Virus record (IMG/VR): IMGVR_UViG_3300034072_000926
Coordinates: 291,621-355,620 of that record
Length of the DNA stretch: 64,000 nucleotides
From: a virus
Strand: one strand, 5' to 3'
Below are positions 19,620-33,602 of the stretch, one piece after another (within the stretch, counting starts at the first letter, position 1; every line of letters begins with the position of its first letter). The notes beneath the pieces are model-generated. The model was not told the origin of the DNA, did no database searches, and saw only the letters and a program-made list of their open reading frames with translations. A program made the position numbers and the translations under genes.

Positions 19620-20855
19620 GTGAGATCGACTTTGGACCTTTTGAACCTTATATGGCGTGATCTTCATAACGCCCGTATCTGGAAAGATGCTCCGGTTCTC
19701 GCCCGAGATATCTATAAGGATCATTACGCTAACTATCGGCGCATCTTCCATCGTGCTCGTCCTTTTAACCTCGATTCTAAGGCGCTTCGGGTCGCCATCG
19801 AATTGTCGATGGAAGGCCCGGAGAAGATGGCGGATCGTCTCCTTCTTGCACGACTACCCTTTCCCGAAATGTGGATCGAATTTGATCTACACGACAAGCT
19901 ATTCATCGGCAACGAACTAGGCATCAGTCCCGGTCCGGCCGAAGACACCCCAAGTCGTATTGGCTACCTCTTGCAGGAAGATCCTGGTGATCATCTTCGC
20001 TGGACTGCAACCACATGGGTGAGTGTAGATAGCATCCGTCAACCGGTCCATAAAGCGCATCGTGATGAAATGCTCACAAGTGTGGCCATGAATGCGTGGA
20101 TGATCGACACTGAGAAGCGAGCAATCCCTGAACGAATTGGCGCGATCAATGGTGTAACTCGCCAAGAGATCGAGAGCGCAATCAGTCTCAATATCAAGAA
20201 CGGCGACTATACCAAGGATGATGCTTGGAGGGCTTTTGCTCATCTGGGATGGGGTTATGGCTCCACAATGGATGATGTTAAGGAAGCCTATGATGGTATT
20301 GATCCTATGCGCGTTTTGGGACAGGTCCCTCTGCTTCAGAACTCGATCAACGTCGGATGGGAGCCACTGAGCTATCAGATTCGTCCTATCTCAACCGGAC
20401 GTATCAACGAGCAGTTCGCTAATTCGTGTGTGGAAAGCCGTGGTGATATGCGGACACTGGTTTCCATCCTCGCTCTCATCAATGAAGTGCCAATTATCGA
20501 GACTCCTGTGGAACGCAAAGGCAGTTTCATCGGGGCAGGTGGCGTGATCAAGAAATACCTGACCAACAAAACCGTCACGATCAACATTCCAAGCCGCAAG
20601 CCCTTGAAGCAAATTCAGAGATTGCTGGCAAAGAAAGTGAAAAGCCACAAGGCTCGACATGAGGTTCGCGGTCACTGGCGCACGATTATTCACAAGAATG
20701 ATCACTGGCGTAAGGACAATATGCCAGATGGAACGATCGTCAGGACTTTCATTGCGGCTGGGCAATTGGAGCGAGTCTGGGTTGAAAGCCACGAACGCGG
20801 GGATGCTTCTTATGGCTACGTGAAGCACGATTACAAGATTGAGAAGCGTAAATGA
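19620..20855 (+). CDS. phage hypothetical protein, 411 aa
   Basis: The start is the GTG at 19620, because an in-frame TAA lies two codons upstream and the next Met is over 60 residues in. Residues 1-120 are helical and contain a P-F-P-E-M-W-I-E-F-D-type motif. The C-terminal 100 residues have a distinctive GHWRTIIHKNDHWRKDN, then RVWVESHERGDASYGYVKHDY, which I recall from hypothetical proteins of alphaproteobacterial phages and prophages. No function is known to me. It heads the plus-strand paralog cassette and overlaps the first paralog by 4 bp. Confidence 0.82.
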   Translation: MRSTLDLLNLIWRDLHNARIWKDAPVLARDIYKDHYANYRRIFHRARPFNLDSKALRVAIELSMEGPEKMADRLLLARLPFPEMWIEFDLHDKLFIGNELGISPGPAEDTPSRIGYLLQEDPGDHLRWTATTWVSVDSIRQPVHKAHRDEMLTSVAMNAWMIDTEKRAIPERIGAINGVTRQEIESAISLNIKNGDYTKDDAWRAFAHLGWGYGSTMDDVKEAYDGIDPMRVLGQVPLLQNSINVGWEPLSYQIRPISTGRINEQFANSCVESRGDMRTLVSILALINEVPIIETPVERKGSFIGAGGVIKKYLTNKTVTINIPSRKPLKQIQRLLAKKVKSHKARHEVRGHWRTIIHKNDHWRKDNMPDGTIVRTFIAAGQLERVWVESHERGDASYGYVKHDYKIEKRK

Positions 20856-21055
20856 GCCTTCCAACTTTCTCAAAGATTTGGCCTCATGTCGTCAGGGTTC
20901 AGACTGAATTGAAGGACGATGCTTGGCTGTGGATCCAGCAATATTGCTGGGATAGTGATATTCCAGGCTATGACATCTTCACCTCATTCAGCAATACTGA
21001 ATTTGGCTTCAAAGACCCCAAACTAGCAATGGAATTCAAGCTCAGGTTTGGCTAA
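20852..21055 (+). CDS. W-FKLW family small protein
   Basis: A 67-residue member, among the shortest: helix motif DAWLWIQQYC and ending DPKLAMEFKLRFG. Phe replaces the second Trp. It overlaps the 411-residue gene by ATGA. Confidence 0.82.
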   Translation: MSLPTFSKIWPHVVRVQTELKDDAWLWIQQYCWDSDIPGYDIFTSFSNTEFGFKDPKLAMEFKLRFG

Positions 21056-21058
21056 ATA
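21051..21058 (+). promoter_or_regulatory. late-type promoter box GCTAAATA
   Basis: GCTAAATA lies over the stop codon of the preceding gene, 18 nt before ATG 21077 with an AGGAGG ribosome site between. Confidence 0.55.
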
Positions 21059-21076
21059 CCTCTAGGAGGTATTCAT

Positions 21077-21349
21077 ATGTCCAAACAATTGAATCTCAAG
21101 AAGCAGCTAATCGACCAGGGTTCTCACGCTGGTGCAGCGATGGTTGCGCTTTCCCCACTTATTGCAAGTCCTTCGGTGTTTACCGCAGCAATTGCTGGCT
21201 TTGGTCTAGGCTTGGTTCGCGAAGTCACATCGCGAGGAACTCCTACCAAGTTGAGCAATTTTGTTGATACATTTAAGTCTCCATGGTCTTGCCTGGATAT
21301 GTCTTTCTGGACACTAGGCGCTGTTTTGGCCTGGAGCATCTTCAACTAA
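21077..21349 (+). CDS. small membrane protein, 90 aa
   Basis: Two hydrophobic segments, residues 17-45 (HAGAAMVALSPLIASPSVFT onwards) and 72-88 (DMSFWTLGAVLAWSIF), with a charged N-terminus (KQLNLKKQLIDQ). Late promoter box and strong ribosome site suggest late expression, which would fit a holin-like or virion-membrane role, but I recognise no family. Confidence 0.78.
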   Translation: MSKQLNLKKQLIDQGSHAGAAMVALSPLIASPSVFTAAIAGFGLGLVREVTSRGTPTKLSNFVDTFKSPWSCLDMSFWTLGAVLAWSIFN

Positions 21350-21350
21350 C

Positions 21351-21665
21351 GTGGATCGTCACGTTAGGCACTTAGAACCATATTATCTGCAAAAGCAGAG
21401 TCTGCTTTTGCAATATCCACTTGTTTTGACTTTAGAGCAAGTGGATAGCATTACAGCCATATCCAATTGGATTGCCGGCGTTCACATTGATTGTAGGTGG
21501 CACGCCTTCCTCTTCAGGAACTTCGGCTTCGAAATTGGATATGACTTCTTCTTTCGTCAGCCTGGAGATGCCTCCCTATTCAAACTCGCTTGGGGAGGAA
21601 TCATAGACGATAACATGCCTCCTATCCGTTCTGGATTCTTCCTCGGAGAGCAATGGACTCCTTGA
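21351..21665 (+). CDS. W-FKLW family small protein with C-terminal tail
   Basis: A 104-residue member starting at GTG 21351. The helix motif is ITAISNWIAG and the FKL motif is GDASLFKLAWGG, followed by a 21-residue extension ending FFLGEQWTP. Gly-Gly is retained internally here. Confidence 0.75.
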   Translation: MDRHVRHLEPYYLQKQSLLLQYPLVLTLEQVDSITAISNWIAGVHIDCRWHAFLFRNFGFEIGYDFFFRQPGDASLFKLAWGGIIDDNMPPIRSGFFLGEQWTP

Positions 21666-21689
21666 CAAAAGGTTACTTTCTGCTACATT
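21662..21689 (+). promoter_or_regulatory. sigma70-like early promoter, leaderless
   Basis: TTGACA (21662-21667), 16-nt spacer ending TTTCTGC, TACATT (21684-21689). Only 6 nt separate the -10 from ATG 21696, so the predicted start of transcription is the start codon. Confidence 0.75.
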
Positions 21690-21695
21690 GCGGTT

Positions 21696-21965
21696 ATGAA
21701 ACCGATCGAGTCAAAATATAGAAAATTTCCTTTTGCCTTGGTATTACCCGACCTTATGCCTGTAGGACATGAGTCTCGTCACATCGCAATCAAGGAATGG
21801 ACCGATGCTCTCGATCTGGCTTTCAACACCCATTACGTCTGCTTTGAAGTTCAGAAGAGAGTTCAGTATCGGATAATCTCTCTCCACTGTTGGGCTTTTA
21901 GCGAAAAATGGATGTCACTCCAATTTAAGTTGAAGTTCGGTGGATGGTCGGATACAAATTCATAA
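21696..21965 (+). CDS. W-FKLW family small protein
   Basis: An 89-residue member with helix motif AIKEWTDALDL and FKL motif KWMSLQFKLKFGG plus an 8-residue tail. It is predicted to be translated from a leaderless mRNA; no Shine-Dalgarno site is present. Confidence 0.8.
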   Translation: MKPIESKYRKFPFALVLPDLMPVGHESRHIAIKEWTDALDLAFNTHYVCFEVQKRVQYRIISLHCWAFSEKWMSLQFKLKFGGWSDTNS

Positions 21966-22435
21966 TTGATGGTCGCCCTCATGCGACTTTCAACTGGTTC
22001 GATGGCGAAGTCAAGATGCAAAGCGCCCTACAGGACTGGTTGAATAGACATCGTTGCTGGGATGGAGCAGATCGAGGCTGGATGGGATGGACTGATCCAT
22101 TGCAACTCCGTCCTCTCTGTAACTATAGCCAGATCGATAATACCTGGTTGGTTTTTGATTGGAATCATATCCATATCGGAAAAGCCTTTCGTGAGCGTTT
22201 CTCAAAATGGCGGGAAAGCATGGCTCATGAAGTTCGCTCTCATATTCCCTCTACGAGAACCGGCGAGCAAATTCTCGATCATCATAGCAACTGGCTTCTT
22301 GCATTGTGTCAAATCGAAGGCCATGACTGGTCCAGGGCCCCATGTGAAAAATCATTTACGGATGATGACAATTGGGTGTATAGCTTTGCTTCGAAGAAAG
22401 TCGCAGCGGCTTTCAAGATTGTCTTTGGAGTCTAG
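21944..22435 (+). CDS. W-FKLW family protein, probable two-domain member
   Basis: At 163 residues this is about twice the usual length. The first half has LQDWLNRHRCWD and ends in a degenerate IHIGKAFRERFSKWR; the second half ends SKKVAAAFKIVFGV. I read it as two fused or internally duplicated domains. It overlaps the previous member by 22 bp. Confidence 0.75.
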   Translation: MVGYKFIIDGRPHATFNWFDGEVKMQSALQDWLNRHRCWDGADRGWMGWTDPLQLRPLCNYSQIDNTWLVFDWNHIHIGKAFRERFSKWRESMAHEVRSHIPSTRTGEQILDHHSNWLLALCQIEGHDWSRAPCEKSFTDDDNWVYSFASKKVAAAFKIVFGV

Positions 22436-22729
22436 ATGTTCAAGTCCCTGAAAGGCTTTGCCGATGATACTAAGCTTGGAATGGGACTCCACGTGGATCT
22501 ATTGCCTGCTGAATATCTCGCAATTGCCAAACGTGAGGATATAGGTCAGACTCCTTTTGCCGATACCCCTGCTTTGATTCGCGACCATCTGAAAAATTGG
22601 TGCGCAGATAATTCTCGCGGTCGATGGAAGTATTCTGACATCAACGTCGATAATCATTTGGCATTCCGCTTTGTCTTCCAGAAGAAGAGCGAAGCTGTTC
22701 GCTTCAAGCTCATATGGGGTGGCAAATGA
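22436..22729 (+). CDS. W-FKLW family small protein
   Basis: A 97-residue member: HLKNWCADNSRGRW helix motif and C-terminus KSEAVRFKLIWGGK. The codons for Trp-Gly-Gly (TGGGGTGGC) lie 4 nt before the next start and can serve as its ribosome site. Confidence 0.82.
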   Translation: MFKSLKGFADDTKLGMGLHVDLLPAEYLAIAKREDIGQTPFADTPALIRDHLKNWCADNSRGRWKYSDINVDNHLAFRFVFQKKSEAVRFKLIWGGK

Positions 22730-22926
22730 TCTTCCCTTATATGGTTAGAGTTCCTGATGAACGTGATCCCCGCAATGGTCATGATACCATCGAATGGCTA
22801 AAAGAGCGCGGTAAGAATCCCGGTAAACATTATGACTTCCATATGCACGGCGGTCAATCGGGATATACGAGCTTCTGGTTTAAGAGCCGAACGATTGCTC
22901 GCTGGGTCGCGTTAGTCTGGACCTGA
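22726..22926 (+). CDS. W-FKLW family small protein
   Basis: A 66-residue member from ATG 22726 (ATGA overlap). Helix motif TIEWLKERGK and an end SRTIARWVALVWT in which FKL is replaced by VAL. Confidence 0.75.
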   Translation: MIFPYMVRVPDERDPRNGHDTIEWLKERGKNPGKHYDFHMHGGQSGYTSFWFKSRTIARWVALVWT

Positions 22927-22956
22927 TTTCTATTTTGCAAATTCTACCCTAACTCT

Positions 22957-22976
22957 GTTAATCCTTTTGGGTTAAC
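22957..22976 (+). repeat. GTTAAyCC hairpin before a paralog gene
   Basis: GTTAATCC-TTTT-GGGTTAAC forms an 8-bp stem (one G-T pair) 10 nt before GTG 22987. A related hairpin, GTTAACCC/GGGTTAAC, lies at 33642-33666 upstream of the other paralog cassette. Confidence 0.6.
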
Positions 22977-22986
22977 GGAGGTCCTA

Positions 22987-23175
22987 GTGTTTGATCATTC
23001 AGTGTTTGTTACTAGCAATTCTCACAATATCAAACTCTTGAAGCAAATGAATTTGAAATTGGGTCGAGATTTCCGTTCCGAAAAAGGAGCGGTAGCTGCT
23101 GGTCGTCCCAATCAATTGCGTCTGCTATTCAAAGACAAAGATCAGGCAATGATCTTCAAGCTAAAGAGCAAATGA
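22987..23175 (+). CDS. W-FKLW family small protein
   Basis: A 62-residue member, the smallest complete one, starting at GTG 22987 behind ACGGAGG. The helix motif is reduced (LLKQMNLKLGRDF), and it ends DKDQAMIFKLKSK. Confidence 0.75.
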   Translation: MFDHSVFVTSNSHNIKLLKQMNLKLGRDFRSEKGAVAAGRPNQLRLLFKDKDQAMIFKLKSK

Positions 23176-23417
23176 CCCATTACGTTTGGTTTGAAATGCC
23201 TGATGGGGTATTTGGTCCCAAGACCCTAGTTGTCAGGGGAGACATAGATGAATGGATTCTTATAAATGATCCACTCAACACTATACAATTCAACTTCTTC
23301 TCAAAAGATAAGAGAACGCCAGTATTCTATACTAAGGATCTGTCAGACCTTAAATTCATGCGGTTCAAATTCGATTGCCTGAAAATGGCTCGTAGATTTG
23401 CCATAACATTTGTCTGA
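23172..23417 (+). CDS. W-FKLW family small protein, divergent
   Basis: An 81-residue member overlapping its neighbour by ATGA. Helix motif DIDEWILIND; the end CLKMARRFAITFV keeps only the hydrophobic pattern of the FKL motif. Confidence 0.72.
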   Translation: MTHYVWFEMPDGVFGPKTLVVRGDIDEWILINDPLNTIQFNFFSKDKRTPVFYTKDLSDLKFMRFKFDCLKMARRFAITFV

Positions 23418-23428
23418 TAAATTAACGT

Positions 23429-23659
23429 ATGGAAGAGATTTTCGTACGCACTCGCAAGCTCAGTATGACACAGCTTCTTGAAGTGTCTGCATGGTTGAAA
23501 GAACACCTAACTGGTTCGGCATCTATCCGACATGCTGATCCTACGATCTATATTCAGCAATATTGCGCTGAAATGGATTCAGGCAAAAGGATCCATAGGA
23601 TCAAGGTCCGATTTTTCAACGAGACTGACGCTAGACGCTTCTTAATGGTTTGGGGTTGA
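23429..23659 (+). CDS. W-FKLW family small protein
   Basis: A 76-residue member: VSAWLKEHLTG and an end NETDARRFLMVWG. No ribosome site precedes ATG 23429. Confidence 0.75.
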   Translation: MEEIFVRTRKLSMTQLLEVSAWLKEHLTGSASIRHADPTIYIQQYCAEMDSGKRIHRIKVRFFNETDARRFLMVWG

Positions 23660-23683: not shown

Positions 23684-23702
23684 GTAGCATAAGGAGGTGC
23701 AA

Positions 23703-23951
23703 ATGAATCAACTGCCAGATATTGAAGACCTGTTTCCCAACCTCGTTCGCGTCAAGCATAACGGGGATGCGTCCGGTGTTGCACTGAAGATTATGAAGTG
23801 GCTTGAAGGCCGTTCCATCATGATCCACAAGGACTTCTATCTGGATATGCAGACTGATTCAGAACGCATCGAGGTCCGCTTCCGCAAAAAGAAGCCCGCC
23901 AAGCTGTTCAAGGAAAACAAGAAAGCAATCCGCGATGAAGTCGAAGGTTGA
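23703..23951 (+). CDS. W-FKLW family small protein, highly basic C-terminus
   Basis: An 82-residue member starting at ATG 23703, 7 nt after AAGGAGG. Helix motif IMKWLEGRS; the C-terminal motif is replaced by a basic KKKPAKLFKENKKAIRDE, with only LFK left of FKL. Confidence 0.75.
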   Translation: MNQLPDIEDLFPNLVRVKHNGDASGVALKIMKWLEGRSIMIHKDFYLDMQTDSERIEVRFRKKKPAKLFKENKKAIRDEVEG

Positions 23952-24231
23952 TCCTCTCGTCGAGCATGGTTTCAAGATTTTCATTCCCTACTCGAATACC
24001 CGTGCGTTCGAGACTCGTAAACTCACGCACACTGGTGGCAAATACAGCGATCGGAAATATTCCTATGAGCGGGATAATGTGCCTTCCAAAGAGCTGTCGG
24101 CTTGGCTGAAGGAACAGTGCGGGACTCATGGTGTTCTGTGGCTTTGTAAGAAGACCAGTGAGGGCTTCAACATATACTTCGCGCGCAAAGATGTTGCTAT
24201 GTTTGCCAAGCTCACGTGGGGCGGGGTGTGA
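23935..24231 (+). CDS. W-FKLW family small protein
   Basis: A 98-residue member: LSAWLKEQCGTHG and an end RKDVAMFAKLTWGGV. It overlaps the preceding gene by 17 bp. Confidence 0.82.
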   Translation: MKSKVDPLVEHGFKIFIPYSNTRAFETRKLTHTGGKYSDRKYSYERDNVPSKELSAWLKEQCGTHGVLWLCKKTSEGFNIYFARKDVAMFAKLTWGGV

Positions 24232-24512
24232 CTCATATCTGCATAAAGGCAACCGACGACATCTATGACGGTTTCGGATTGCGCCTAGAGATCCACGACT
24301 GGCTGACAGAAAATGTCGGCTGGGCGGCAAGCGATATGACTGATTATACTTGGGGTAAGAAAGTCGGATATTATGTGCGCCCATCTGAGAGCGCACTTAA
24401 TCCGATGTATCAGTCCTCAGGGGATAGACAAACCGGTGGAAATTATCTACACTTCTTGTTCAAAGATCCCGCAAAAGCAATGTTGTTCAAACTTAGATGG
24501 GGTGGTAAATGA
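24228..24512 (+). CDS. W-FKLW family small protein
   Basis: A 94-residue member. The GTG at 24228 gives a GTGA overlap and uses the preceding Trp-Gly-Gly codons as ribosome site; another GTG lies 4 codons upstream. Motifs: EIHDWLTENVGW and DPAKAMLFKLRWGGK. Confidence 0.82.
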   Translation: MTHICIKATDDIYDGFGLRLEIHDWLTENVGWAASDMTDYTWGKKVGYYVRPSESALNPMYQSSGDRQTGGNYLHFLFKDPAKAMLFKLRWGGK

Positions 24513-24763
24513 CCAATAAGGAAAAGGCCCTCGCCGCTCTGCTCTATGTAAGCCTGATCAAATGGGCCGAGTCGACCATTGATGTCCTGGAGCGAGTTCG
24601 TGCAACTGGCGTCCATGACGATATGATCGATGATCTGATCCACAACGTCAATGACCTCATTGATAAGAAGCTGGCCGAGCATCATGACTCTGATGATGTC
24701 ATGGACGAGATCGAAAAGGTCAATGCCCATATAGTGAAGATGAAAGCTGTCTATGGCGTTTGA
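24509..24763 (+). CDS. helical hypothetical protein, 84 aa
   Basis: This gene sits inside the paralog cassette but lacks both motifs. It is all-helical with two amphipathic stretches (AALLYVSLIKWAESTIDVLE, DDMIDDLIHNVNDLIDKKL), probably a coiled-coil hairpin. ATGA overlap with the upstream paralog shows co-translation. Role unknown. Confidence 0.78.
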   Translation: MTNKEKALAALLYVSLIKWAESTIDVLERVRATGVHDDMIDDLIHNVNDLIDKKLAEHHDSDDVMDEIEKVNAHIVKMKAVYGV

Positions 24764-25094
24764 GTGTATCTGGAATGATGATGGCACGGTGACTATCCTT
24801 GAGGCATTCTCGGATAATCGCTATGCGGGTTCTCCACCTCAAACTGAGGACGAACGTCATGCAGCTCGTGAGAAGAGAAATCGTCAAACTGGCTTCGAGA
24901 ACCTTCGTGACCTCATGAAGGAAATGCAAGACAAGAAGTGGCAAGCATCTCCTCTCTATCACTGGTTCGAAGACCACTGCCCTGGCTATAAAGTCTTCCT
25001 CTCGCATCCCGCAAACTCGATGCCAAAGGAAGCAGCAAAGATCACATTCGCTGATCCTAAACATGCGATGCATTTCAAGCTAGTCTGGGCGTGA
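24753..25094 (+). CDS. W-FKLW family small protein
   Basis: A 113-residue member with a long charged N-terminal insertion (TEDERHAAREKRNRQ). Motifs: PLYHWFEDHCPGY and DPKHAMHFKLVWA. Confidence 0.82.
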   Translation: MAFECIWNDDGTVTILEAFSDNRYAGSPPQTEDERHAAREKRNRQTGFENLRDLMKEMQDKKWQASPLYHWFEDHCPGYKVFLSHPANSMPKEAAKITFADPKHAMHFKLVWA

Positions 25095-25354
25095 TCAAGA
25101 TCACCAATAATGATTATATCGTAATTGTCGATCGCAGTCTTGCGATTATTCAAACCCCTAGTGCAACCTGTCTTAACAATGACATGCTCGATTGGCTAAC
25201 AGTAAACATTGGTCAGCAATCTATGATGGCATTATCTACATCAAACGATGCTGCATGGTTTATGCGGATATGGGATTTTGCTGGTGATATGAAACAGGGC
25301 TTTTTCTTTAAGACGAGGAAGCATGCCTTGTTATTTGCTGCGCGGTGGCTATGA
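25091..25354 (+). CDS. W-FKLW family small protein
   Basis: An 87-residue member from GTG 25091 (GTGA overlap). Motifs: MLDWLTVNIG and TRKHALLFAARWL, with FAA in place of FKL. Confidence 0.78.
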   Translation: MIKITNNDYIVIVDRSLAIIQTPSATCLNNDMLDWLTVNIGQQSMMALSTSNDAAWFMRIWDFAGDMKQGFFFKTRKHALLFAARWL

Positions 25355-25575
25355 CTGAGATCATGGTCCAGTTCGATATAGTGGCTACGAACAATCTCTG
25401 GCGAACTCCTAAGATCCTCCTGAATCCTGATGTCAAGGAATTCCTTGATCGCTATAGAGCAACCTTTGAATACCTACTTGCCGGAGTCTATACGCCACAT
25501 ACCGAGCAATGGCAAGTTCTCTTCACATTCAGAAACAGAGCAGATGCAATCGCATTCAAATTGACATTCTGCTAA
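25351..25575 (+). CDS. W-FKLW family small protein
   Basis: A 74-residue member from ATG 25351 (ATGA overlap). Motifs: VKEFLDRYRATF (Phe for Trp) and NRADAIAFKLTFC. Confidence 0.8.
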   Translation: MTEIMVQFDIVATNNLWRTPKILLNPDVKEFLDRYRATFEYLLAGVYTPHTEQWQVLFTFRNRADAIAFKLTFC

Positions 25576-25596
25576 CCTATCCCACATAACGTGGGA

Positions 25597-26019
25597 ATGA
25601 AGATCATCACACCCACCGTCGTTTCCATTTCTGGCACGGGCGAAATCCATACTAATCACACCTTTTGGATTGAAAACGACGATGGTAGTCGTTTTTCTGT
25701 GGATATTCCAAATCACCCTGCAATCATAGAGCAATTTGTATGGCTGAGTGACAATGACTGTCTTCGTCATCTGAAATCAGTATCGCCTGTTCTTCAAACC
25801 AATAACTATGAAATTCAACATGCGATAGATCATAATACTATGATTGATGAGCATTTTTATCTAGCAAAATCATATAAATCCAAGACTAGTCCTTTTGATC
25901 TACTCAGCCCATATGGTAATAGGGTGGAAATCCCTTCCCCGACTTGGGAAGTCCTTTGGTCATTCTGGTCTAAGGAACATGCAATCCTATTCAAGATTGC
26001 AGTCGGTGGTTCGATTTGA
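25597..26019 (+). CDS. W-FKLW family protein, long member
   Basis: A 140-residue member. The ATG at 25597 is chosen; a GTG two codons earlier lies in a CCCAC/GTGGG inverted repeat. A first half with FVWLSDND is followed by an Ile/His-rich middle (IQHAIDHNTMIDEHFYL) and the end SKEHAILFKIAVGGSI. Confidence 0.75.
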   Translation: MKIITPTVVSISGTGEIHTNHTFWIENDDGSRFSVDIPNHPAIIEQFVWLSDNDCLRHLKSVSPVLQTNNYEIQHAIDHNTMIDEHFYLAKSYKSKTSPFDLLSPYGNRVEIPSPTWEVLWSFWSKEHAILFKIAVGGSI

Positions 26020-26408
26020 AAATCTTTCAATACAACACCATGTGGGTCCTTATAGGAGATAAGTCTTCTATCTGGCAACATGAAGGATCAGTTTCTCGAA
26101 AGCCTGAGCTTAAACCTGTCCTGGCCGAGTGGCTTCGTCTAGCATACCCTGATCAGTGGACGACTGTTAACACCTCTAAACGAGGTAAATTAATCTCTAG
26201 GAACATGAGAGTTCTGAGGGCTTTTAAGCTTCGCTGGGAAGACACGCCAGAGACGACTTTCAGAGCTATAGACACAAGTGCATTCTATGCACCATATATT
26301 CCCTTGCAGATGGTGTCTGCAAATCATCTTCCACCGCCCAAGTTCTTGACAAGATACGACTATTCCTATACCAGTCCTACAAGCCCGCTAAAGCCCGACA
26401 ATTCCTGA
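26016..26408 (+). CDS. W-FKLW family protein with C-terminal extension
   Basis: A 130-residue member from TTG 26016 (TTGA overlap). Motifs VLAEWLRLAYPDQW and MRVLRAFKLRWE end at residue 75; a 55-residue Pro/Tyr/Ser-rich tail follows (FYAPYIPL, PPPKFLTRYDYSY). The tail is unlike other members. Confidence 0.72.
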   Translation: MKIFQYNTMWVLIGDKSSIWQHEGSVSRKPELKPVLAEWLRLAYPDQWTTVNTSKRGKLISRNMRVLRAFKLRWEDTPETTFRAIDTSAFYAPYIPLQMVSANHLPPPKFLTRYDYSYTSPTSPLKPDNS

Positions 26409-26484: not shown

Positions 26485-26709
26485 ATGGCACTAGGTGATC
26501 GTTATTATAGCGTTGAAGTGCCAAGAGACAATGTCTTGGACGTTGACGGCGACTATTATCGTCCACAATATACTCTTCACCGCAAGGTAAAAGACTGGGC
26601 CGATGATTATGATATTGATCTCGACTGGTCCTTCGATGATCTCGGCAATGTCTGGTTCGAATTCGATAACCGCGGGGTAGCGGCTATCTTCCTCCTAAAC
26701 TGGGCTTGA
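26485..26709 (+). CDS. W-FKLW family small protein, acidic
   Basis: A 74-residue member, very Asp-rich (DVDGDYY, DDYDIDLDWSFDD). Motifs: VKDWADDYDID and NRGVAAIFLLNWA. An AGGAAAG ribosome site precedes ATG. Confidence 0.8.
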   Translation: MALGDRYYSVEVPRDNVLDVDGDYYRPQYTLHRKVKDWADDYDIDLDWSFDDLGNVWFEFDNRGVAAIFLLNWA

Positions 26710-26733: not shown

Positions 26734-26739
26734 GCTGAT

Positions 26740-27069
26740 ATGAAATCCGCAGGCACTTATTTTGGATCACATCTACTGGTTCCCGGTCCGCCCCTAGCTG
26801 ATTGGGCTGCATCCACGTATGCCTTGATGCAGGATGACTTCGTTGAATGGCTGCGAGAAAACGTAGGCAATGGAGTTGCGGCTCCCCGAAAGAGCATGGA
26901 CGACTTCTCTGACTGGTTCTGGCTCGATAATCGGCGTTCAACTCTTGATACGGCTAAATGGCAGAAAAACGGCTTCGTGCTAGTCTTTCGAGACTCACGC
27001 AAAGCCGTTTTCACTAAGATGATATGGGGTGGACGAGACCACCCGTTCTTACTTGACGAGACCGGGTAG
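26740..27069 (+). CDS. W-FKLW family small protein with tail
   Basis: A 109-residue member: FVEWLRENVGNG and DSRKAVFTKMIWGG, followed by RDHPFLLDETG. The last 21 bp overlap the 3' end of the convergent peptidase gene. Confidence 0.78.
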   Translation: MKSAGTYFGSHLLVPGPPLADWAASTYALMQDDFVEWLRENVGNGVAAPRKSMDDFSDWFWLDNRRSTLDTAKWQKNGFVLVFRDSRKAVFTKMIWGGRDHPFLLDETG

Positions 27070-27489: not shown

Positions 27490-27540
27490 AGTCGATCCTC
27501 CTTCACCCTACTTATCAGTAAATAGGAGGTGGAAAGTGAT

Positions 27541-27765
27541 TTGTTTTCTCCTTTATTCGATGAGCGTCCTTATCGAGTAACTTTGCCTCAGGTCATCCAC
27601 GCTCATCAGCATTATCAGGTTCGACTTTTTCTACTCGATCTCAAGTGGGAAGAATATCAGGACTGGATGATCTGTCCCTATACCTATACGGTTGCAGGAC
27701 AATATGAGGTGTGGTTTAAAGATATTGGCAAAGCCACCTACTTTAAGCTATCCTTTGTCCTATGA
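27541..27765 (+). CDS. W-FKLW family small protein
   Basis: A 74-residue member, probably from TTG 27541, 11 nt after AGGAGG; a GTG at 27529 is in frame but overlaps that site. Motifs: KWEEYQDWMICPY and IGKATYFKLSFVL. Confidence 0.72.
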   Translation: MFSPLFDERPYRVTLPQVIHAHQHYQVRLFLLDLKWEEYQDWMICPYTYTVAGQYEVWFKDIGKATYFKLSFVL

Positions 27766-27989
27766 CACACATGATAAGCTATCCTTTGATCTGTGATAAT
27801 GACATGGACTTCTGTGTCGAGTCATATAATCTCAAGAACGAAATAGCAGCCCACTTCGAAGTGCCTGCTCGTTTTGAGACTGAGCATTATGTGATCAAGT
27901 GCGGAAGGGAATATGACAAGTTCTACTTCGACGTTTATTTCCCAGATAAGGAAAAGGCTCTCATGTTCAAATTGGCATTTATCCGATGA
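27762..27989 (+). CDS. W-FKLW family small protein
   Basis: A 75-residue member (ATGA overlap) ending DKEKALMFKLAFIR. Trp of the helix motif is absent (LKNEIAAHFEVP). Confidence 0.8.
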   Translation: MTHMISYPLICDNDMDFCVESYNLKNEIAAHFEVPARFETEHYVIKCGREYDKFYFDVYFPDKEKALMFKLAFIR

Positions 27990-28231
27990 AGACCGTTCGC
28001 ATCTCTTATAACTATGAACCGCCTGAACATGACGATTTATTCGTCAGGGCACATCTTGTTGAACAAGCAGACAAGAAGATCAGGATCATTACGAGGACGT
28101 TCGAGACGTTCACGGAAATGAAGCTAGACCCCGATAGTTACGAGGTCAGACTCGGGGACGAGTGTTTGGAGATTACCTTCACCAAGCTCTCTGATGCACT
28201 CTTGTTCAAGCTCACGTTTCGATCTGTGTAA
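27986..28231 (+). CDS. W-FKLW family small protein, last of plus cassette
   Basis: An 81-residue member ending KLSDALLFKLTFRSV; helix motif weak (FETFTEMKLDPD). Its last 108 bp overlap the 3' end of the convergent minus-strand paralog. Confidence 0.78.
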   Translation: MKTVRISYNYEPPEHDDLFVRAHLVEQADKKIRIITRTFETFTEMKLDPDSYEVRLGDECLEITFTKLSDALLFKLTFRSV

Positions 28232-28513
28232 CATCCAATATCGAGATTCATATTGGGCAACGAGTTCTTCTCGTTCAAGCGTGTCGAAGGCACGAATCAA
28301 GAGATCATGAAAGCAAGCCTTGAAATGAAGGGCGTATCGTCTTGGTAAGACGACGGTGTAGAACTCCTGCCCCTTACGCTCCGATTGGCTGACATGATAA
28401 TCCCAACCTTGCTCCAAGCCATACATGTCAAAAATCTTCTTAATCACGACATGAAAGGTTACCCCGCGTTTCGTGAAGTTCAGGAATGATTCGTTGACTT
28501 CTATGCCGATCAA
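28124..28513 (-). CDS. W-FKLW family protein with antisense-overlapping tail
   Basis: A 129-residue member, probably from TTG 28513 (TTGA overlap; preceding Gly-Gly codons as ribosome site). The domain ends at PRRYALHFKACFHDLL near residue 80, and a 49-residue helical tail (REELVAQYESRYWML) follows. About 35 codons of this tail are antisense to the plus-strand paralog. Confidence 0.7.
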   Translation of the reverse strand: MIGIEVNESFLNFTKRGVTFHVVIKKIFDMYGLEQGWDYHVSQSERKGQEFYTVVLPRRYALHFKACFHDLLIRAFDTLEREELVAQYESRYWMLHRSKRELEQECIRELGEGNLQTLVPESDLVTIGV

Positions 28514-28806
28514 TTGCCACCCCACAAGGTCTTGAAATAGACGGCGTGCTTTGGATCTCTGAACCAGAGCGTTAATGGATATTCATCCTCTTTGAGCATT
28601 TTGTCAAAGTCAATGGCCCAACCCCATGGATCTCCACTCTCGATGAAATCCTCATGGGTATTGTCAGACGACCACCAACGACATTCATCATCCTCGGGCA
28701 ATATGCCAGCGATCTTGATAAGATGTTCTCGAGCGTCTGGACGAAGCTCTATGACTGAACCCCAGATTGCCACCTTACCGGGTCGGAGTGAGAAACTATA
28801 GATCAT
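28510..28806 (-). CDS. W-FKLW family small protein
   Basis: A 98-residue member from ATG 28806 (TGATG overlap; an ATG two codons earlier is also open). Helix motif REHLIKIAGI, an Asp/Trp-rich middle (CRWWSSDNTHEDF), and the end DPKHAVYFKTLWGGN. Confidence 0.78.
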   Translation of the reverse strand: MIYSFSLRPGKVAIWGSVIELRPDAREHLIKIAGILPEDDECRWWSSDNTHEDFIESGDPWGWAIDFDKMLKEDEYPLTLWFRDPKHAVYFKTLWGGN

Positions 28807-29183
28807 CACCATGTCAATTTGAAATGAACTGCCTCCATCTTGTTCAGGAAACCAACGAACCAGCCAAGCTCGTCATTCTGTTGATCACGATAGAACGCAT
28901 ACTGGTAGCCGTTTGCTGTAATCCAGTCGTGGATTGGACGAATCAGGCGATAGTTCAATCCACCCGCTTTGAAGGTAACATAGTCCTTTTCTACTACCTG
29001 TGATAATCCATCTTTGATCCAAGGAACCATTTCGATATTCAGAGGTTCAGGTGGCATACTGCTACGTCGAATAAGACTGATATGGTCGTCAAAATTGGCA
29101 ACTTTTACCCAATAGATCACAGGGAAACGACAGCCGATCCCGTCTTTTGTCTTATAGGTAATTGGAGCCGTGATATCTTTCAT
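28806..29183 (-). CDS. W-FKLW family small protein
   Basis: A 125-residue member. ATG 29183 is chosen because a promoter lies exactly 6 nt upstream of it, making the TTG at 29210 unlikely to be transcribed. Motifs: PIHDWITANGYQY and NKMEAVHFKLTW. Confidence 0.78.
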   Translation of the reverse strand: MKDITAPITYKTKDGIGCRFPVIYWVKVANFDDHISLIRRSSMPPEPLNIEMVPWIKDGLSQVVEKDYVTFKAGGLNYRLIRPIHDWITANGYQYAFYRDQQNDELGWFVGFLNKMEAVHFKLTW

Positions 29184-29189
29184 ACCACA

Positions 29190-29217
29190 TTCATACGACC
29201 TTTTACCCAAATGTCAA
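29190..29217 (-). promoter_or_regulatory. sigma70-like early promoter, leaderless
   Basis: On the minus strand TTGACA (29217-29212), 16-nt spacer, TATGAA (29195-29190), then 6 nt to ATG 29183. Confidence 0.65.
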
Positions 29218-29235
29218 CTTGAATAGCATCCCATT

Positions 29236-29481
29236 CTAGAGCCATGCTAGGACAAACCGCATAGAATCAATCCTGTTATGGATCCTAAGAAAGGTGTATT
29301 GACCACATCGTTCACTTAATTGGTATTGGACGCCATTTTCCTCAAACCAATGTTGTAGAGGCGGAGACAATAATATCTCATCTGGACCGAAGGCATTGAA
29401 GGGATGATTTCTAGGCCGTCTCATAAGTTCTGGGGCACCAAAGCCCCAGATGGGCAATTTTACACTAACACCTAGAGCCAT
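29236..29481 (-). CDS. W-FKLW family small protein
   Basis: An 81-residue member: LQHWFEENGVQY and NRIDSMRFVLAWL. It overlaps its upstream neighbour by 10 bp. Confidence 0.8.
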   Translation of the reverse strand: MALGVSVKLPIWGFGAPELMRRPRNHPFNAFGPDEILLSPPLQHWFEENGVQYQLSERCGQYTFLRIHNRIDSMRFVLAWL

Positions 29482-29753
29482 GATAGTTTGAACAACATAG
29501 CGGCATTTGCATCATCCTTATGGAATGCAATACCTGGAACAATACTGTAGCGATTAGGACGATAGTCCAAAATCTCGACGAAACTAGGTTCAGGTTCGAA
29601 GTTGCTCATTCGCAATTGGTTTTGATCGAACCATTCGACTCCCTCTGCGGAAATCCACATAGGCTGGGATGGATCCCAAAACGCATGACCCCATGGCAGA
29701 GGTATGAAATATGTCTGCATACGTTCTATATAGTAGATTCGGTAGTCAGCCAT
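29472..29753 (-). CDS. W-FKLW family small protein
   Basis: A 93-residue member: GVEWFDQNQLRM and DDANAAMLFKLSWL. It overlaps its upstream neighbour by 8 bp. Confidence 0.82.
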   Translation of the reverse strand: MADYRIYYIERMQTYFIPLPWGHAFWDPSQPMWISAEGVEWFDQNQLRMSNFEPEPSFVEILDYRPNRYSIVPGIAFHKDDANAAMLFKLSWL

Positions 29754-30051
29754 ATTTCAACTTCAAGAGAGTGGCTTCTGAATGATCCGAGAAGAAGAAA
29801 GCCAATCCACTTACCCTACTAGGTTTGCCATCGCCCCATACCCAATCATAGTAGGGTTCAATGCGAATCAGACTCTTGTAGGCTATGATCTCTTTGGAGA
29901 ACTCATCATTGGGCCATACCTCACCAATATGTCGTCCACCTGTTATAATAGATTCGAATCCCATTCTCGATTTCTGGACGATTTGCTTTGGCCGAAGATA
30001 GAGGTGTTCAAAGACCTCGCTACTTCGAGGTATCTTGACTTCGTATTCCAT
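29746..30051 (-). CDS. W-FKLW family small protein
   Basis: A 101-residue member from ATG 30051 (TGATG overlap). The end is DHSEATLLKLKYG; the helix motif lacks Trp (EIIAYKSLIRIEP), and a WVWGDGKP loop is present. Confidence 0.78.
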   Translation of the reverse strand: MEYEVKIPRSSEVFEHLYLRPKQIVQKSRMGFESIITGGRHIGEVWPNDEFSKEIIAYKSLIRIEPYYDWVWGDGKPSRVSGLAFFFSDHSEATLLKLKYG

Positions 30052-30413
30052 CACTTCCACGCGAGCTTGAACCGGAGAGCATCATCCATGTCAGTGAAGC
30101 GGAACTGAACACCTAGGGCACGATAGGGTTTCAGTTCTTCCGGATTCTCTAGAGTGAGATTACCAGGAATGAAAGCCTTCTCATCGCGATACTTGGGCCA
30201 GAGAAAATCGAAGCCATATTTGCCACGACAGTTATCAACTAGCCAAGAGGCCATCTCTGGGGAGATTGCCCAGAGCGCTTCGCCCCTAATACGGAAGAGA
30301 ATACTTTCTGCACCTTTACCAGCATCCCGACGAGTAAAGGGACCATCCTTGAATTCAAGGTTCACTCGAATCAAGCTAGGCGCAACCTCTTCCTTTTTCT
30401 TTCGCCACCACAT
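30051..30413 (-). CDS. W-FKLW family small protein
   Basis: A 120-residue member with a basic N-terminus (WWRKKKEE). Motifs: MASWLVDNCRGKY and DMDDALRFKLAWK. It has its own promoter and an AGAGG ribosome site. Confidence 0.82.
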   Translation of the reverse strand: MWWRKKKEEVAPSLIRVNLEFKDGPFTRRDAGKGAESILFRIRGEALWAISPEMASWLVDNCRGKYGFDFLWPKYRDEKAFIPGNLTLENPEELKPYRALGVQFRFTDMDDALRFKLAWK

Positions 30414-30436
30414 ATTTGACCTCTTTTGTTACAAAA

Positions 30437-30465
30437 ATCATAACGCGGTTAACTCACAAGGTCAA
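30437..30465 (-). promoter_or_regulatory. sigma70-like promoter
   Basis: On the minus strand TTGACC (30465-30460), 17-nt spacer, TATGAT (30442-30437). It overlaps the stop of the upstream paralog and drives the gene starting at 30413. Confidence 0.7.
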
Positions 30466-30743
30466 GAATTACCGCCCCAAGTGAGCTTGAAAAGAACTGC
30501 GACCTTAGGATTCTTGATAGAAATCCTAACGATGCGCTTTGTCATGTATGTTCGAGGGATGCCCTCAACGAATGTGTCCACATAATAGTCACGACCTAGC
30601 TTCAATTCATGGTCTTTCAACCATGAACCAACAAACTTCTCCGCAAGAGCACGTCGCTCATTTGCGGTCAATTTGTCATACATCTGATTCATGCCATGGT
30701 CGAAGTCTCGATAAGCAACAACATCTGGTCGAACTTCTCTCAT
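30462..30743 (-). CDS. W-FKLW family small protein
   Basis: A 93-residue member from ATG 30743 (ATGA overlap): VGSWLKDHELKLG and NPKVAVLFKLTWGGNS. Gly-Gly is present although the next gene has its own promoter. Confidence 0.82.
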   Translation of the reverse strand: MREVRPDVVAYRDFDHGMNQMYDKLTANERRALAEKFVGSWLKDHELKLGRDYYVDTFVEGIPRTYMTKRIVRISIKNPKVAVLFKLTWGGNS

Positions 30744-30967
30744 GCCCACCTCATCTTAAACAACATCGCGGACTTTCGATCTAGGAAACGAAACGATATC
30801 TCCCACTCATCGACCGTCCGATTCAAAGTGCAGAAAGAGCGACTACAGGAGATGTTTGAATCACGCAACCAGGAAAAGATCTCCTTCCTGACTTGGATAC
30901 CGCGATTGCCTTTGTTGTCTTCCCACCAGCATCCAGCTTTAGAGAAAGGTATCATGATCTCAATCAT
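30740..30967 (-). CDS. W-FKLW family small protein
   Basis: A 75-residue member from ATG 30967: IFSWLRDSNISC and DRKSAMLFKMRWA. Confidence 0.82.
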   Translation of the reverse strand: MIEIMIPFSKAGCWWEDNKGNRGIQVRKEIFSWLRDSNISCSRSFCTLNRTVDEWEISFRFLDRKSAMLFKMRWA

Positions 30968-31257
30968 TCGCCGCCCCACGTGAGTTTGAACAACATAGCC
31001 TTATCCAAGTCCTCGATATCAACAGAGAACTTCTGAGTTTGTGGACTGTCATCCCACAGATACAAAAATCGATACTGGATATCATGGTCCGTCATCCATT
31101 GATGAACTTCGTCATTCAAGCCTACGATTGCGTTGATACTGTTCCATTCCTTAGACACCGGCTTGCCATTAAAGATCTGCGGGCCTCTAGGTAGAACAGG
31201 TTGATCACTGTTGAGAACAGTGAACTCGCAGATGGTATAACTGACATCGAAGATCAT
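30964..31257 (-). CDS. W-FKLW family small protein
   Basis: A 97-residue member: VHQWMTDHDIQY and DLDKAMLFKLTWGGE. TGGGGCGGC of its end sits just before the next ATGA. Confidence 0.85.
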   Translation of the reverse strand: MIFDVSYTICEFTVLNSDQPVLPRGPQIFNGKPVSKEWNSINAIVGLNDEVHQWMTDHDIQYRFLYLWDDSPQTQKFSVDIEDLDKAMLFKLTWGGE

Positions 31258-31505
31258 ACGCCACCCCAGACAAGCTTGAACATCATAGCTTCCTCTTTGG
31301 TCAAGAAAGCAACCCGAGAATGTTTGAAAGGCATGTTATCGTCTGACATTATGATCTGAGGCCCAGCAAACTGAAAACGAGCATGATCATCACCAAGCTT
31401 CTGACAGTTCTCTTTGATCCACTGCGATACCTCAGTCTTGATTGGAGATGTCGTGGTCCTTGGATATTCGCAAATGTTACGATATGGAACTTCAACCCAG
31501 ATCAT
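31254..31505 (-). CDS. W-FKLW family small protein
   Basis: An 83-residue member: VSQWIKENCQKLG and TKEEAMMFKLVWGGV, coupled to the next gene by ATGA. Confidence 0.85.
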   Translation of the reverse strand: MIWVEVPYRNICEYPRTTTSPIKTEVSQWIKENCQKLGDDHARFQFAGPQIIMSDDNMPFKHSRVAFLTKEEAMMFKLVWGGV

Positions 31506-31732
31506 TGTCCACCCCAGACAAGCTTGAACAATAGAGCGACTTTGGGATCAGAGAGCGTCACGACACAATCTCGTCCATTAGTATGGAAATCATGATCCCA
31601 TCCACTAGGAGTGGCATGGACATCGAGCCACTGATAGAGCGCACTGTTGAACACCTCAACATTTCCCCAAGGGGATTCGTTGCAGCGTTCTAGCCGATAA
31701 GCCAAACTAGCAGGGATAACCACATTGGACAT
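31502..31732 (-). CDS. W-FKLW family small protein
   Basis: A 76-residue member: LYQWLDVHATPSGW and DPKVALLFKLVWGGQ. Confidence 0.85.
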   Translation of the reverse strand: MSNVVIPASLAYRLERCNESPWGNVEVFNSALYQWLDVHATPSGWDHDFHTNGRDCVVTLSDPKVALLFKLVWGGQ

Positions 31733-31741
31733 CTGGTTTGC

Positions 31742-31975
31742 TTAACACCACTTTATCTTAAAGTAAATGGCTTCCTTGCGAGCCGTAGAAGGAAATTCCA
31801 CATAGAAGGAACCATAGACTTGACCACGCGGGAGAAGCTTTACCTTGTGGAGACCTCGACTCTTGAGCCACTCGGTGATTTCAGGAATGAAGACATACCC
31901 TTCATCTAGAAAGATGGAATGCTTCCTAAAGCTGAACATGCCAACGTCGTATGAATTAACATCAATCCTATACAT
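31742..31975 (-). CDS. W-FKLW family small protein
   Basis: A 77-residue member from ATG 31975; two in-frame GTG codons precede it. Motifs: ITEWLKSRGLHK and RKEAIYFKIKWC. Confidence 0.8.
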   Translation of the reverse strand: MYRIDVNSYDVGMFSFRKHSIFLDEGYVFIPEITEWLKSRGLHKVKLLPRGQVYGSFYVEFPSTARKEAIYFKIKWC

Positions 31976-32354
31976 CACCACACCATAAAAGTTTGAAGAT
32001 CAAAGCGTCATTCTTGTTCGTGAAGGCAATCTCACGAGTAGAGGTTGCACGACGTAGAACTTCTTGGTCAATATTGGGCTGATTGTTCGTTTTGGCGACC
32101 CGAACTTCTCTGAATAGATTCTTTGTCTCTGTGCTCATGAAGATATCCTCCATGGCATGTTTGCGATTGATGACTTCATACCATCGTCCAACACAATTAG
32201 AGTCTAACCATTCCATAAGCGACTCGGATAAAGGAAAACCGTAGACGTGTGGACGATCATTACTAGCATGCCAACGAAGCACAATCTTTGGAAGCATTGG
32301 AGTACGATCAAATGCCTTCCGTATCCATCGGAGATCCACAAAGAACATTTCCAT
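31968..32354 (-). CDS. W-FKLW family protein, long member
   Basis: A 128-residue member from ATG 32354, which overlaps the upstream TAA; a 21-codon upstream extension is open but antisense to nothing useful and lacks a ribosome site. Motifs: LMEWLDSNCVGRW and NKNDALIFKLLWCGDV, with an inserted segment of about 40 residues. Confidence 0.78.
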   Translation of the reverse strand: MEMFFVDLRWIRKAFDRTPMLPKIVLRWHASNDRPHVYGFPLSESLMEWLDSNCVGRWYEVINRKHAMEDIFMSTETKNLFREVRVAKTNNQPNIDQEVLRRATSTREIAFTNKNDALIFKLLWCGDV

Positions 32355-32602
32355 TAGTGTATCCAAGCAAGAACGAAATGAATGAGACGAATCCGAGTCT
32401 TGAAACTGACATAACACCCGCCAGAGAACGGCTCATAGGAGATCAATCCCTTGAAATCATCTAACCACTCATAAGCATAGATGGAGACCTGTTTGTCATT
32501 AAGCCAGATTCCATATGGTCGTCGGTTGATCTTATGGTCAGCCTCTATGCGACTCTTCCGCCTTACCTGCTCACGCTTGATACCCTCTAACAAAGACGTC
32601 AT
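32354..32602 (-). CDS. W-FKLW family small protein
   Basis: An 82-residue member from ATG 32602 (ATGA overlap), basic N-terminus (KREQVRRKSRIE). Motifs: AYEWLDDFKGL and TRIRLIHFVLAWIH. Confidence 0.78.
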   Translation of the reverse strand: MTSLLEGIKREQVRRKSRIEADHKINRRPYGIWLNDKQVSIYAYEWLDDFKGLISYEPFSGGCYVSFKTRIRLIHFVLAWIH

Positions 32603-32874
32603 TTCCACCTCAATGCAAACTTGATCGCATCAACCCGATTCTCGAACGTATATCGAAATGCAACCAATTCACTCTTAACTGAAACCATCTGACGCCCAGA
32701 TGGATGAGAACCAGCAGGAGTCTTGATTATGTTCTGATCAATACCACGAACAAAATCATAGATGTCCTCTTCCTCAAACCAATCCTGAAACATAGATATG
32801 ATTGTTCGCATATCTCCACGACCTACAACAGCACGTCGTATAGTAGGCGTATCAAGGACAACAGTGTAGGTCAT
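32599..32874 (-). CDS. W-FKLW family small protein
   Basis: A 91-residue member from ATG 32874 (TGATG overlap): MFQDWFEEEDIYDF and NRVDAIKFALRWK. Confidence 0.82.
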   Translation of the reverse strand: MTYTVVLDTPTIRRAVVGRGDMRTIISMFQDWFEEEDIYDFVRGIDQNIIKTPAGSHPSGRQMVSVKSELVAFRYTFENRVDAIKFALRWK

Positions 32875-33116
32875 CACCAATTCAACCTGAATAGTAGGGC
32901 ATCCTCACGATCATCAAAACAGAATCGAACACCCATATTGATAAAACGAGCACATTTCCTATCAAAGATGGTCCAACTATGAACAGAGTAGGCCGCCCGA
33001 CTATGGTCCACTAACCATATCTCAACCTCTTTCCTCAAATGAGGAATAGGAACACCGTGGAGGACGAGTTCCTCCATGACAGACGTATTGGTCCAGGGGA
33101 TCTTAACCTCTATCAT
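32874..33116 (-). CDS. W-FKLW family small protein
   Basis: An 80-residue member. ATG 33116 (MIEVKIP) is chosen; the open frame extends 39 codons further but that part overlaps the upstream paralog. Motifs: VEIWLVDHSRAAY and DREDALLFRLNW. Confidence 0.8.
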   Translation of the reverse strand: MIEVKIPWTNTSVMEELVLHGVPIPHLRKEVEIWLVDHSRAAYSVHSWTIFDRKCARFINMGVRFCFDDREDALLFRLNW

Positions 33117-33354
33117 ACGTCCCCCACAAAAGCTTGAACAACATTGCGTGATTCCGATCCTCAAAATGAAAGGTGGTCGATTCACGACGAACCCGCCCAT
33201 AAGCATTCTGCTTATGGCAATCAGTAACCTCATATGGAAACTGACTTTCCGCTAACCATTCCCGAAGGTCAGTCCACCACTCTCTATAGCGCATCATATA
33301 CTCAGCACGACCACCAAAAGGATAAGGATTCATGACTACAACCTGGTAACTCAT
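33103..33354 (-). CDS. W-FKLW family small protein
   Basis: An 83-residue member from ATG 33354 (ATGA overlap): LREWLAESQFPY and DRNHAMLFKLLWGTYDRG. Confidence 0.83.
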   Translation of the reverse strand: MSYQVVVMNPYPFGGRAEYMMRYREWWTDLREWLAESQFPYEVTDCHKQNAYGRVRRESTTFHFEDRNHAMLFKLLWGTYDRG

Positions 33355-33602
33355 AACCACTCCAGAGTGAACATCATTGCTTGACCACGAGACTCGAAAA
33401 CAAAGAACAACACATCCTCATTTGCAGACGTCCCACTCTCCCACTTGAACACAATCCCACGGTCGAGCAACCAATCCTTTATCGAACCCGTTCGCGCCGG
33501 ACAACCCATCCGACGCGCATAAGCAGCTAAGGCTTCCATAGGTCTGACTAAGGCAACTCTATACATCTCCCCTCTATAGCGAACCCTAGACCCATATGTC
33601 AC
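33351..33602 (-). CDS. W-FKLW family small protein, first of minus cassette
   Basis: An 83-residue member from GTG 33602: IKDWLLDRGIVFKW and SRGQAMMFTLEWL. The start codon lies inside an ACTATAG-type repeat, with AGGAGAG 12 nt upstream. Confidence 0.8.
   Translation of the reverse strand: MTYGSRVRYRGEMYRVALVRPMEALAAYARRMGCPARTGSIKDWLLDRGIVFKWESGTSANEDVLFFVFESRGQAMMFTLEWL

Follow-up and report, generated by a model that had tools for sequence, protein, structure and literature searches.

Why would a phage fill more than 13 kb with small genes whose products share two short motifs and almost nothing else? We addressed this question for a 64,000-nt window, positions 291,621 to 355,620 of the IMG/VR virus record IMGVR_UViG_3300034072_000926, which is part of a 465-kb genome. 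A preliminary description, made from the letters alone, placed 41 genes between 20852 and 33602, three at 2571-3373 and six at 47638-49606 in one family of about 50 divergent paralogs of 62 to 211 residues, sharing a helix with a tryptophan and a C-terminal motif ending in FKL and an aromatic residue. Our analysis confirms that this family exists, and it is larger than could be seen from the window: 98 matches at E<=1 with one profile (A1), and 80 at E<=0.001 with another (A3), are spread over the whole genome.

Members of the family in the window

We first asked whether the shared motifs exceed what chance would give. A strict C-terminal motif pattern matched 31 window ORFs, against 0.6 on average in shuffled ORFs, and an iterated 22-column HMM of the C-terminus found 37 genes above 15 bits, with a best hit of 3.3 bits in the reversed window. 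We then built an HMM from 80 members of other phages, leaving out every sequence of this genome; it found 34 genes in 20852-33602 and 40 in the window above 12 bits, whereas the best control scored 10.3 bits. About nine weaker genes carry the motif. Seven more genes in the block (beginning at 21696, 21944, 23172, 25591, 26016, 28124 and 32354) and those at 2809, 48282 and 48518 score lower but carry the motif or have syntenic orthologs, such that 41 and about 50 are fair upper counts. Three genes inside the block are not members: 21077-21349 (membrane-type), 24509-24763, and 27049-27489, which matches Pfam Peptidase_M15_3 (endolysin). Over 462 members, the motif positions are A in 92%, F in 91%, K in 91%, L in 89% and a terminal W/F in 84%.

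Bit scores below are from the HMM without this genome unless stated otherwise, and percentages are identities to orthologs in another phage genome, G009. On the minus strand at the start of the window lie members at 2571..2846 (51.1 bits) and 3161..3382 (20.6), with a possible, weak member at 2809..3156 (4.5) that the preliminary description had listed. The main block begins with a plus-strand arm. A sigma70-type promoter-like site, TTGACA-16-TATAGT, lies at 19574..19601 (+), ahead of the gene that leads into this arm, and TTGACA is also present in G009; a second such site, TTGACA-16-TACATT, lies at 21662..21689 (+), with TTGACA conserved in G009. Plus-strand members are at 20852..21055 (36.9 bits; orthologs in 5 other phages), 21351..21665 (27.5; 76%), 22436..22729 (36.7), 22714..22926 (24.3), 22987..23175 (20.6), 23429..23659 (19.3; 83%, omega 0.07), 23697..23951 (18.3), 23935..24231 (37.6), 24216..24512 (54.7; with a conserved insert of its own in an ortholog alignment), 24753..25094 (28.6), 25091..25354 (28.5), 25345..25575 (33.4), 26485..26709 (23.4), 26740..27069 (31.4), 27529..27765 (21.5), 27762..27989 (23.4) and 27986..28231 (19.1). 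The gene at 21944..22435 (+) is a member, probably with two domains in tandem (17.4 bits with the C-terminal HMM; 69%), and that at 25591..26019 (+) is a member scoring 11.2 bits, and 22.0 with the C-terminal HMM. Membership is probable but the score weak for 21696..21965 (+; 8.3 bits, motif FKLKFGG, 51%), and is only possible for 23172..23417 (+; 7.1, weak) and 26016..26408 (+; 3.5, with an internal AFKLRW, syntenic in G009).

The minus-strand arm includes a possible, weak member at 28124..28525 (motif ALHFKACF in A1; 51%) and, also on the minus strand, members at 28510..28812 (32.3 bits), 28806..29210 (27.6), 29236..29481 (12.6), 29472..29753 (26.6), 29746..30060 (18.4), 30051..30413 (36.1), 30462..30749 (35.9), 30740..30979 (42.2), 30964..31257 (44.9), 31254..31505 (40.8), 31502..31732 (36.1), 31742..31981 (25.0), 31968..32417 (29.0), 32599..32880 (15.4), 32874..33233 (33.7), 33103..33360 (44.7) and 33351..33602 (28.1), with a probable, weak member at 32354..32608 (9.8). 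A cluster of nine CTATAG sites, mostly non-coding, spans 33284..34322 at the head of this arm, and similar clusters occur in G009 and in two further genomes, G003 and G001. The T4 late promoter TATAAATA was not informative (1 found, 1.2 expected). The third group, again on the minus strand, has members at 47638..48273 (25.9 bits), 48862..49098 (13.7), 49095..49367 (21.5) and 49364..49606 (21.2), with probable members at 48282..48521 (6.7, weak) and 48518..48823 (8.4; 15.3 with the C-terminal HMM).

Distribution, age and predicted fold

This genome holds about 80-98 copies. Related jumbo phages hold as many (97, 90 and 82), a 608-kb one holds 58, and the cultured Sinorhizobium phage Phosso holds about 68, whereas one to three copies occur in T4-like contigs and in two alphaproteobacterial (pro)phages. 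No stretch of the full alignment was conserved enough to locate related loci, but a degenerate DNA pattern for AMxFKLxWG was effective. In bacterial genomes we found 39 scattered pattern matches, two of them with pairs of real members (L185 and L196) and one marginal (L182). Searches by tblastn with single members or a consensus against named phages gave nothing useful. Seven jumbo phages with a related tail sheath have none of the family, so it does not follow the sheath. The preliminary description associated a similar FKLRW end with single small proteins of marine T4-like phages; single copies do occur in the uncultured T4-like contigs L064, L070 and L112, but this association does not hold for the three named marine T4-like phages we tested, P-SSM2, HTVC008M and S-PM2. 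We also followed a large multi-domain protein with the same C-terminal motif (about 25.9-27.7 kb in genome coordinates, 603 aa) as a possible anchor, but its homologs have no known function.

No Pfam, PHROG or PDB family matches: 49 members searched against PHROGs and 104 against Pfam gave only scattered single matches at E about 0.01. AlphaFold models of 30740..30979 from a paralog alignment (pLDDT 86) and of 27529..27765 from orthologs only (pLDDT 80), using alignments that share no row, give the same predicted beta-alpha-beta-beta-alpha core. Failure of the motifs to align, or unrelated predicted folds, had been named beforehand as grounds for rejecting the family; neither was found.

The copies are old. 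No two in this genome exceed 42% identity, yet orthologs in other phages reach 84%, in the same order. Between orthologs the part outside the motif is 57% identical, close to the 68% of the motif itself, while between paralogs it hardly aligns. Omega is about 0.07-0.3, indicating purifying selection, in all but one member pair where dS is measurable, the exception being 31254 (0.56, at 36% identity); two antisense ORFs give 1.3. The plus-strand arm is stable, whereas the minus-strand arm has few orthologs and turns over.

Possible roles of the family

What might so many copies of one small protein do? Our analysis shows one family with one predicted core, about 80-100 copies in the most expanded genomes, diversification before the phages split, and purifying selection on the measurable copies; what follows is inferred. 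We propose an ancient, lineage-specific expansion in a group of T4-related jumbo phages, in which the conserved W...F-A-F-K-L-W positions are the shared scaffold and the almost unalignable rest is a different binding surface in each copy. The set would then be a repertoire of intracellular binding modules, made during infection from host-type (sigma70) promoters, each touching a different host or invader macromolecule, probably for host takeover or counter-defence, with the plus arm a settled core set and the minus arm the part that keeps changing. Consistent with this, pI ranges from 4.4 to 9.9, such that there is no common charge, and the C-terminal columns hold no conserved catalytic-type set, only hydrophobic positions, an N-cap and one Lys. 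In the two alphaproteobacterial (pro)phages, pairs of members lie near tail-fibre genes, where accessory genes are usual. Nonetheless, this reading is tentative, since there is no target, expression data or phenotype for any member. Some plus-arm members are as conserved as the endolysin or sheath genes, which is unusual for counter-defence genes; there is no sign of positive selection, although saturated dS makes that test weak; and low-copy relatives lie in replication and translation neighbourhoods, which may point to another ancestral role.

The interpretation in the preliminary description is partly supported. One family, one predicted fold and exceptional amplification hold, but an active or recent arms-race amplification is not supported, given the lack of recent duplicates and the purifying selection on measurable pairs, although the minus arm does turn over. 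Its suggestions of inhibitors or decoys against varied host targets, or of a modular set assembling by the conserved C-terminus, remain conjecture.

An alternative, which we consider less likely, is that all members bind one shared partner, or each other, through the conserved hydrophobic C-terminal helix (A-M-L-F-K-L-x-W), with the variable parts adding specificity, as adaptors or as subunits of a mixed assembly. Indeed, the last helix is hydrophobic on nearly all sides except K and T and is the most conserved part in the 462 members, and we infer no obvious need for so conserved a K in a small core. However, packing of the two helices on the sheet can explain the same residues, and orthologs conserve the rest almost as well as the motif.

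Somewhat less likely still, the ancestor may have worked with replication, RNA repair or translation genes, and the copies become a battery of RNA- or DNA-binding regulators. Atu_ph07 gp255 and gp258 flank a gene that reads like peptidyl-tRNA hydrolase and a Nudix gene, near an RNA ligase; two members keep the first of these contexts in this genome (217-218.6 kb in genome coordinates), and BcepSauron_132 is beside a Nudix gene. Contig L064 has its member in a block with helicase and DNA polymerase-type genes, with UvsX and SSB nearby, and this genome has the same block with extra copies. Against this, the pI spread, with a median charge of -1.2, excludes uniformly basic nucleic-acid binders as well as uniformly acidic DNA mimics, and we found no significant RRM or KH match in sequence or fold (La RRM at E 0.65 with A1, absent with A3; KH fold at E about 0.8 or worse).

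It is very unlikely that these are small decoration or internal virion proteins, since, although the main array lies between tail and fibre genes, the copies are spread over the whole genome, also in replication clusters, and in Atu_ph07 the analogous array, though of another family, begins where the published virion-protein cluster CDS 284-329 ends (PMC6102473). Neutral proliferation of small duplicated genes kept by drift in a large genome is the least likely, since, despite minus-arm turnover, there is purifying selection and synteny over deep divergence and no recent copies are seen in this genome.

Comparison with known systems

The nearest individual proteins are small uncharacterised phage proteins such as BcepSauron QBQ74512 and Atu_ph07 gp255 and gp258, which match the A3 profile (8e-5 to 5e-6 per domain in a search scaled to 500) but occur in one to a few copies with a degenerate FKL motif; a BcepSauron protein, which may or may not be QBQ74512, was also a Foldseek hit (probability 0.97). 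The strand-helix order of the predicted core is similar to that of ACT/ferredoxin-like domains (TyrA, aspartate kinase): the TyrA ACT domain 5uyy matched the first model with probability 0.96 and TMq 0.59, but with E-values above 0.1 (best ACT E about 0.2), the last strand is not seen in the small members, there is no sequence match, and the second model does not single out ACT.

Atu_ph07 carries 19 tandem small divergent paralogs, with the motif SDlfPf, next to its tail genes. We tested this array as a homologous expansion and rejected it, since the profile-profile (hhalign) probability is 0.7%; the Atu_ph07 family is absent from Phosso, G001 and G009. The unrelated array suggests that such sets arise more than once. 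A more speculative and doubtful possibility is that the family is a phage analogue of a binding-protein library, one small scaffold having radiated into about 100 individually conserved specificities that together manage the host cell, and that other jumbo phages have independently filled a tail-gene-flanking region with a library on another scaffold.

A close precedent is the zinc-ribbon expansion of Bacillus phage G (about 35 copies; PMC7824862), likewise a lineage-specific expansion of a tiny domain in a jumbo phage, and described there as unprecedented. The domain here is different, with 1.3% Cys overall and none in the conserved columns, and phage G itself has none of this family. The present family is found in many phages and makes up roughly an eighth of the genes of several of them (80-98 of an estimated 700; Phosso has 735 annotated features for 469 kb), well above the copy number in phage G. 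It turns a large block of jumbo-phage dark matter into one question, namely what one scaffold with 100 surfaces binds, which can be tested in the laboratory because Phosso grows on Sinorhizobium meliloti.

Composition of the array and features of the family

The window lies at positions 291621-355620 of a 465,259-bp virus record. Three counts of family members in the window agree: a regular expression for the motif matched 31 ORFs, against 0.6 in shuffled sequences; an iterated HMM of the C-terminal region identified 37 genes above 15 bits, with scores of at most 3.3 in the reversed window; and an HMM made only from members in other phages identified 34 genes in 20852-33602 and 40 in the window above 12 bits, with controls scoring at most 10.3. 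Hence, the observation of a large family of small paralogs in the preliminary description held. The block consists of a plus-strand arm (20852-28231) and a minus-strand arm (28124-33602) that converge; three genes within the block are not members, among them an M15 endolysin. Across the whole genome (hereafter G000) there are 98 matches at E<=1, and 80 matches at E<=0.001 with another profile (A3), in clusters near 51-55, 62-65, 106-110, 177, 217-229, 242-254, 277-286, 312-325, 340 and 384 kb.

In 462 members, the last 22 columns of the alignment read F(82%)-x-D/N-x-x-x-A(92%)-M/L-L-F(91%)-K(91%)-L(89%)-T-W/F. Protein lengths in G000 run from 62 to 211 aa, with a median of 97, and the pI over all members runs from 4.4 to 9.9 (5-95% range). 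Searches of Pfam, PHROGs and PDB sequences gave no significant match. AlphaFold2 with an alignment of 40 paralogs predicts, at pLDDT 86, a beta hairpin and strand, a helix, two strands and the C-terminal helix. A second member, modelled from itself and six orthologs with none of the other paralogs, is predicted to be strand-helix-strand-strand-helix at pLDDT 80. Motifs that fail to align, or unrelated folds, had been named beforehand as grounds for rejecting a single family; this test was run, and the family passed it. Foldseek searches with the first model found ACT-like domains (probability up to 0.96) and small uncharacterised phage proteins, none with an E-value below 0.03, and the second model gave no consistent match; we call the predicted fold ACT- or ferredoxin-like in arrangement only. 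A large protein of unknown function (336-603 aa), encoded at about 25.9-27.7 kb of G000 (positions 1356-3167 of the extracted stretch L148) and in the stretches L149, L150 and L152, ends in a domain like the family, and has homologs in Phosso and in Xanthomonas phage XaC1.

Other genes and sequence elements in the window were also noted. CTATAG palindromes cluster at the head of the minus arm (33284-34322), where 9 of the 18 in the window fall within 1.1 kb; random placements never exceeded 6 in 20,000. Similar clusters, partly with GTTAACC repeats, occur in the related phage genomes G009 (17), G003 (8) and G001 (14) (stretches L136 15836-16919, L140 15463-16479 and L045 17995-18956). These may mark an origin or a regulatory region, and CACTATAG recalls promoters of single-subunit RNA polymerases. 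Five consecutive plus-strand genes of 324-392 aa lie at 41869-47526; the first two carry putative Ig domains (He_PIG), and two others that were scanned gave no Pfam match. This is possibly another fibre-like paralog set. A gene for a TPM-domain protein (49619-50581) lies beside a cluster of family members, and a phage-encoded class I (Glu/Gln-type) aminoacyl-tRNA synthetase with an anticodon domain is found at 56812-58095, in a window without tRNA genes.

Distribution and history

A search of IMG/VR with a degenerate DNA pattern found 75 stretches, and the profile then counted 80, 59, 61, 47, 89 and 49 copies in contigs of 436, 277, 183, 119, 462 and 608 kb, respectively, and fewer in others; profile A3 also gave counts of 97, 90, 82 and 58. 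Phosso, a cultured Sinorhizobium phage of 469 kb, has 61-68 copies, and Atu_ph07 has 6-7 weak ones. By contrast, no members were found in seven jumbo phages with a related sheath, nor in RaK2, CBB, XacN1, XaC1, phage G, P-SSM2, HTVC008M and S-PM2. Low copy numbers occur in three T4-like contigs (L064, L070 and L112), in a Rhizobium prophage (L185/L122) and in a Novosphingobium contig (L196).

Atu_ph07 gp255 and gp258 match the profile, and resemble two members of G000 in a shared block with a gene that, from our reading of its sequence, resembles peptidyl-tRNA hydrolase, although its PHROG (1866) has no function. The T4-like contig L064 carries one member in a block with helicase, UvsX and SSB genes, and G000 has the same block with extra members inserted. 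Thus, the family is older than the expansion. Within G000 no pair of members exceeds 42% identity, but orthologs in G009 reach 84% and are in the same order. Where dS is measurable, omega is mostly 0.07-0.3, with two spurious antisense ORFs at 1.3 serving as an internal control; since dS is often saturated, these values are approximate. Outside the motif, orthologs keep 57% identity, compared to 68% within it, and two ortholog alignments (A5 and A6) show features peculiar to each copy. The minus arm has few orthologs and turns over.

Possible roles of the family

Our analysis establishes a shared predicted core, old divergence, conservation of individual copies and genome-wide spread. From these, we tentatively infer a scaffold with many different binding surfaces, made in the infected cell, that would act in host takeover or counter-defence; binding, expression and function are all part of this inference. 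The interpretation in the preliminary description is partly supported. TTGACA-type promoter-like sites ahead of the plus arm are retained in G009, which fits transcription by the host polymerase but is not proof of it; the number of such sites in the region is not above chance (31 against 27). The strongest alternatives are common docking of members through the hydrophobic last helix, and a role as nucleic-acid- or translation-linked regulators, as the ancestral gene neighbourhoods suggest; we could not decide between them.

Comparison with other expansions of small phage proteins

Literature searches found no account of this family, and keyword checks of the papers on Atu_ph07 and AP-J-162 found no mention of paralogs. 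Among the papers at hand, the nearest precedent we found is the set of about 35 zinc ribbons in Bacillus phage G (PMC7824862). In addition, next to its tail genes Atu_ph07 has 19 tandem copies (26 matches in all) of a family of small proteins with an SDlfPf motif (about 261.7-268.7 kb; positions 920-7862 of the extracted stretch L031). This family is unrelated to the one described here, such that arrays of small paralogs have arisen at least twice. Lineage-specific expansion in a jumbo phage is already known; the family and the scale of its expansion are new.
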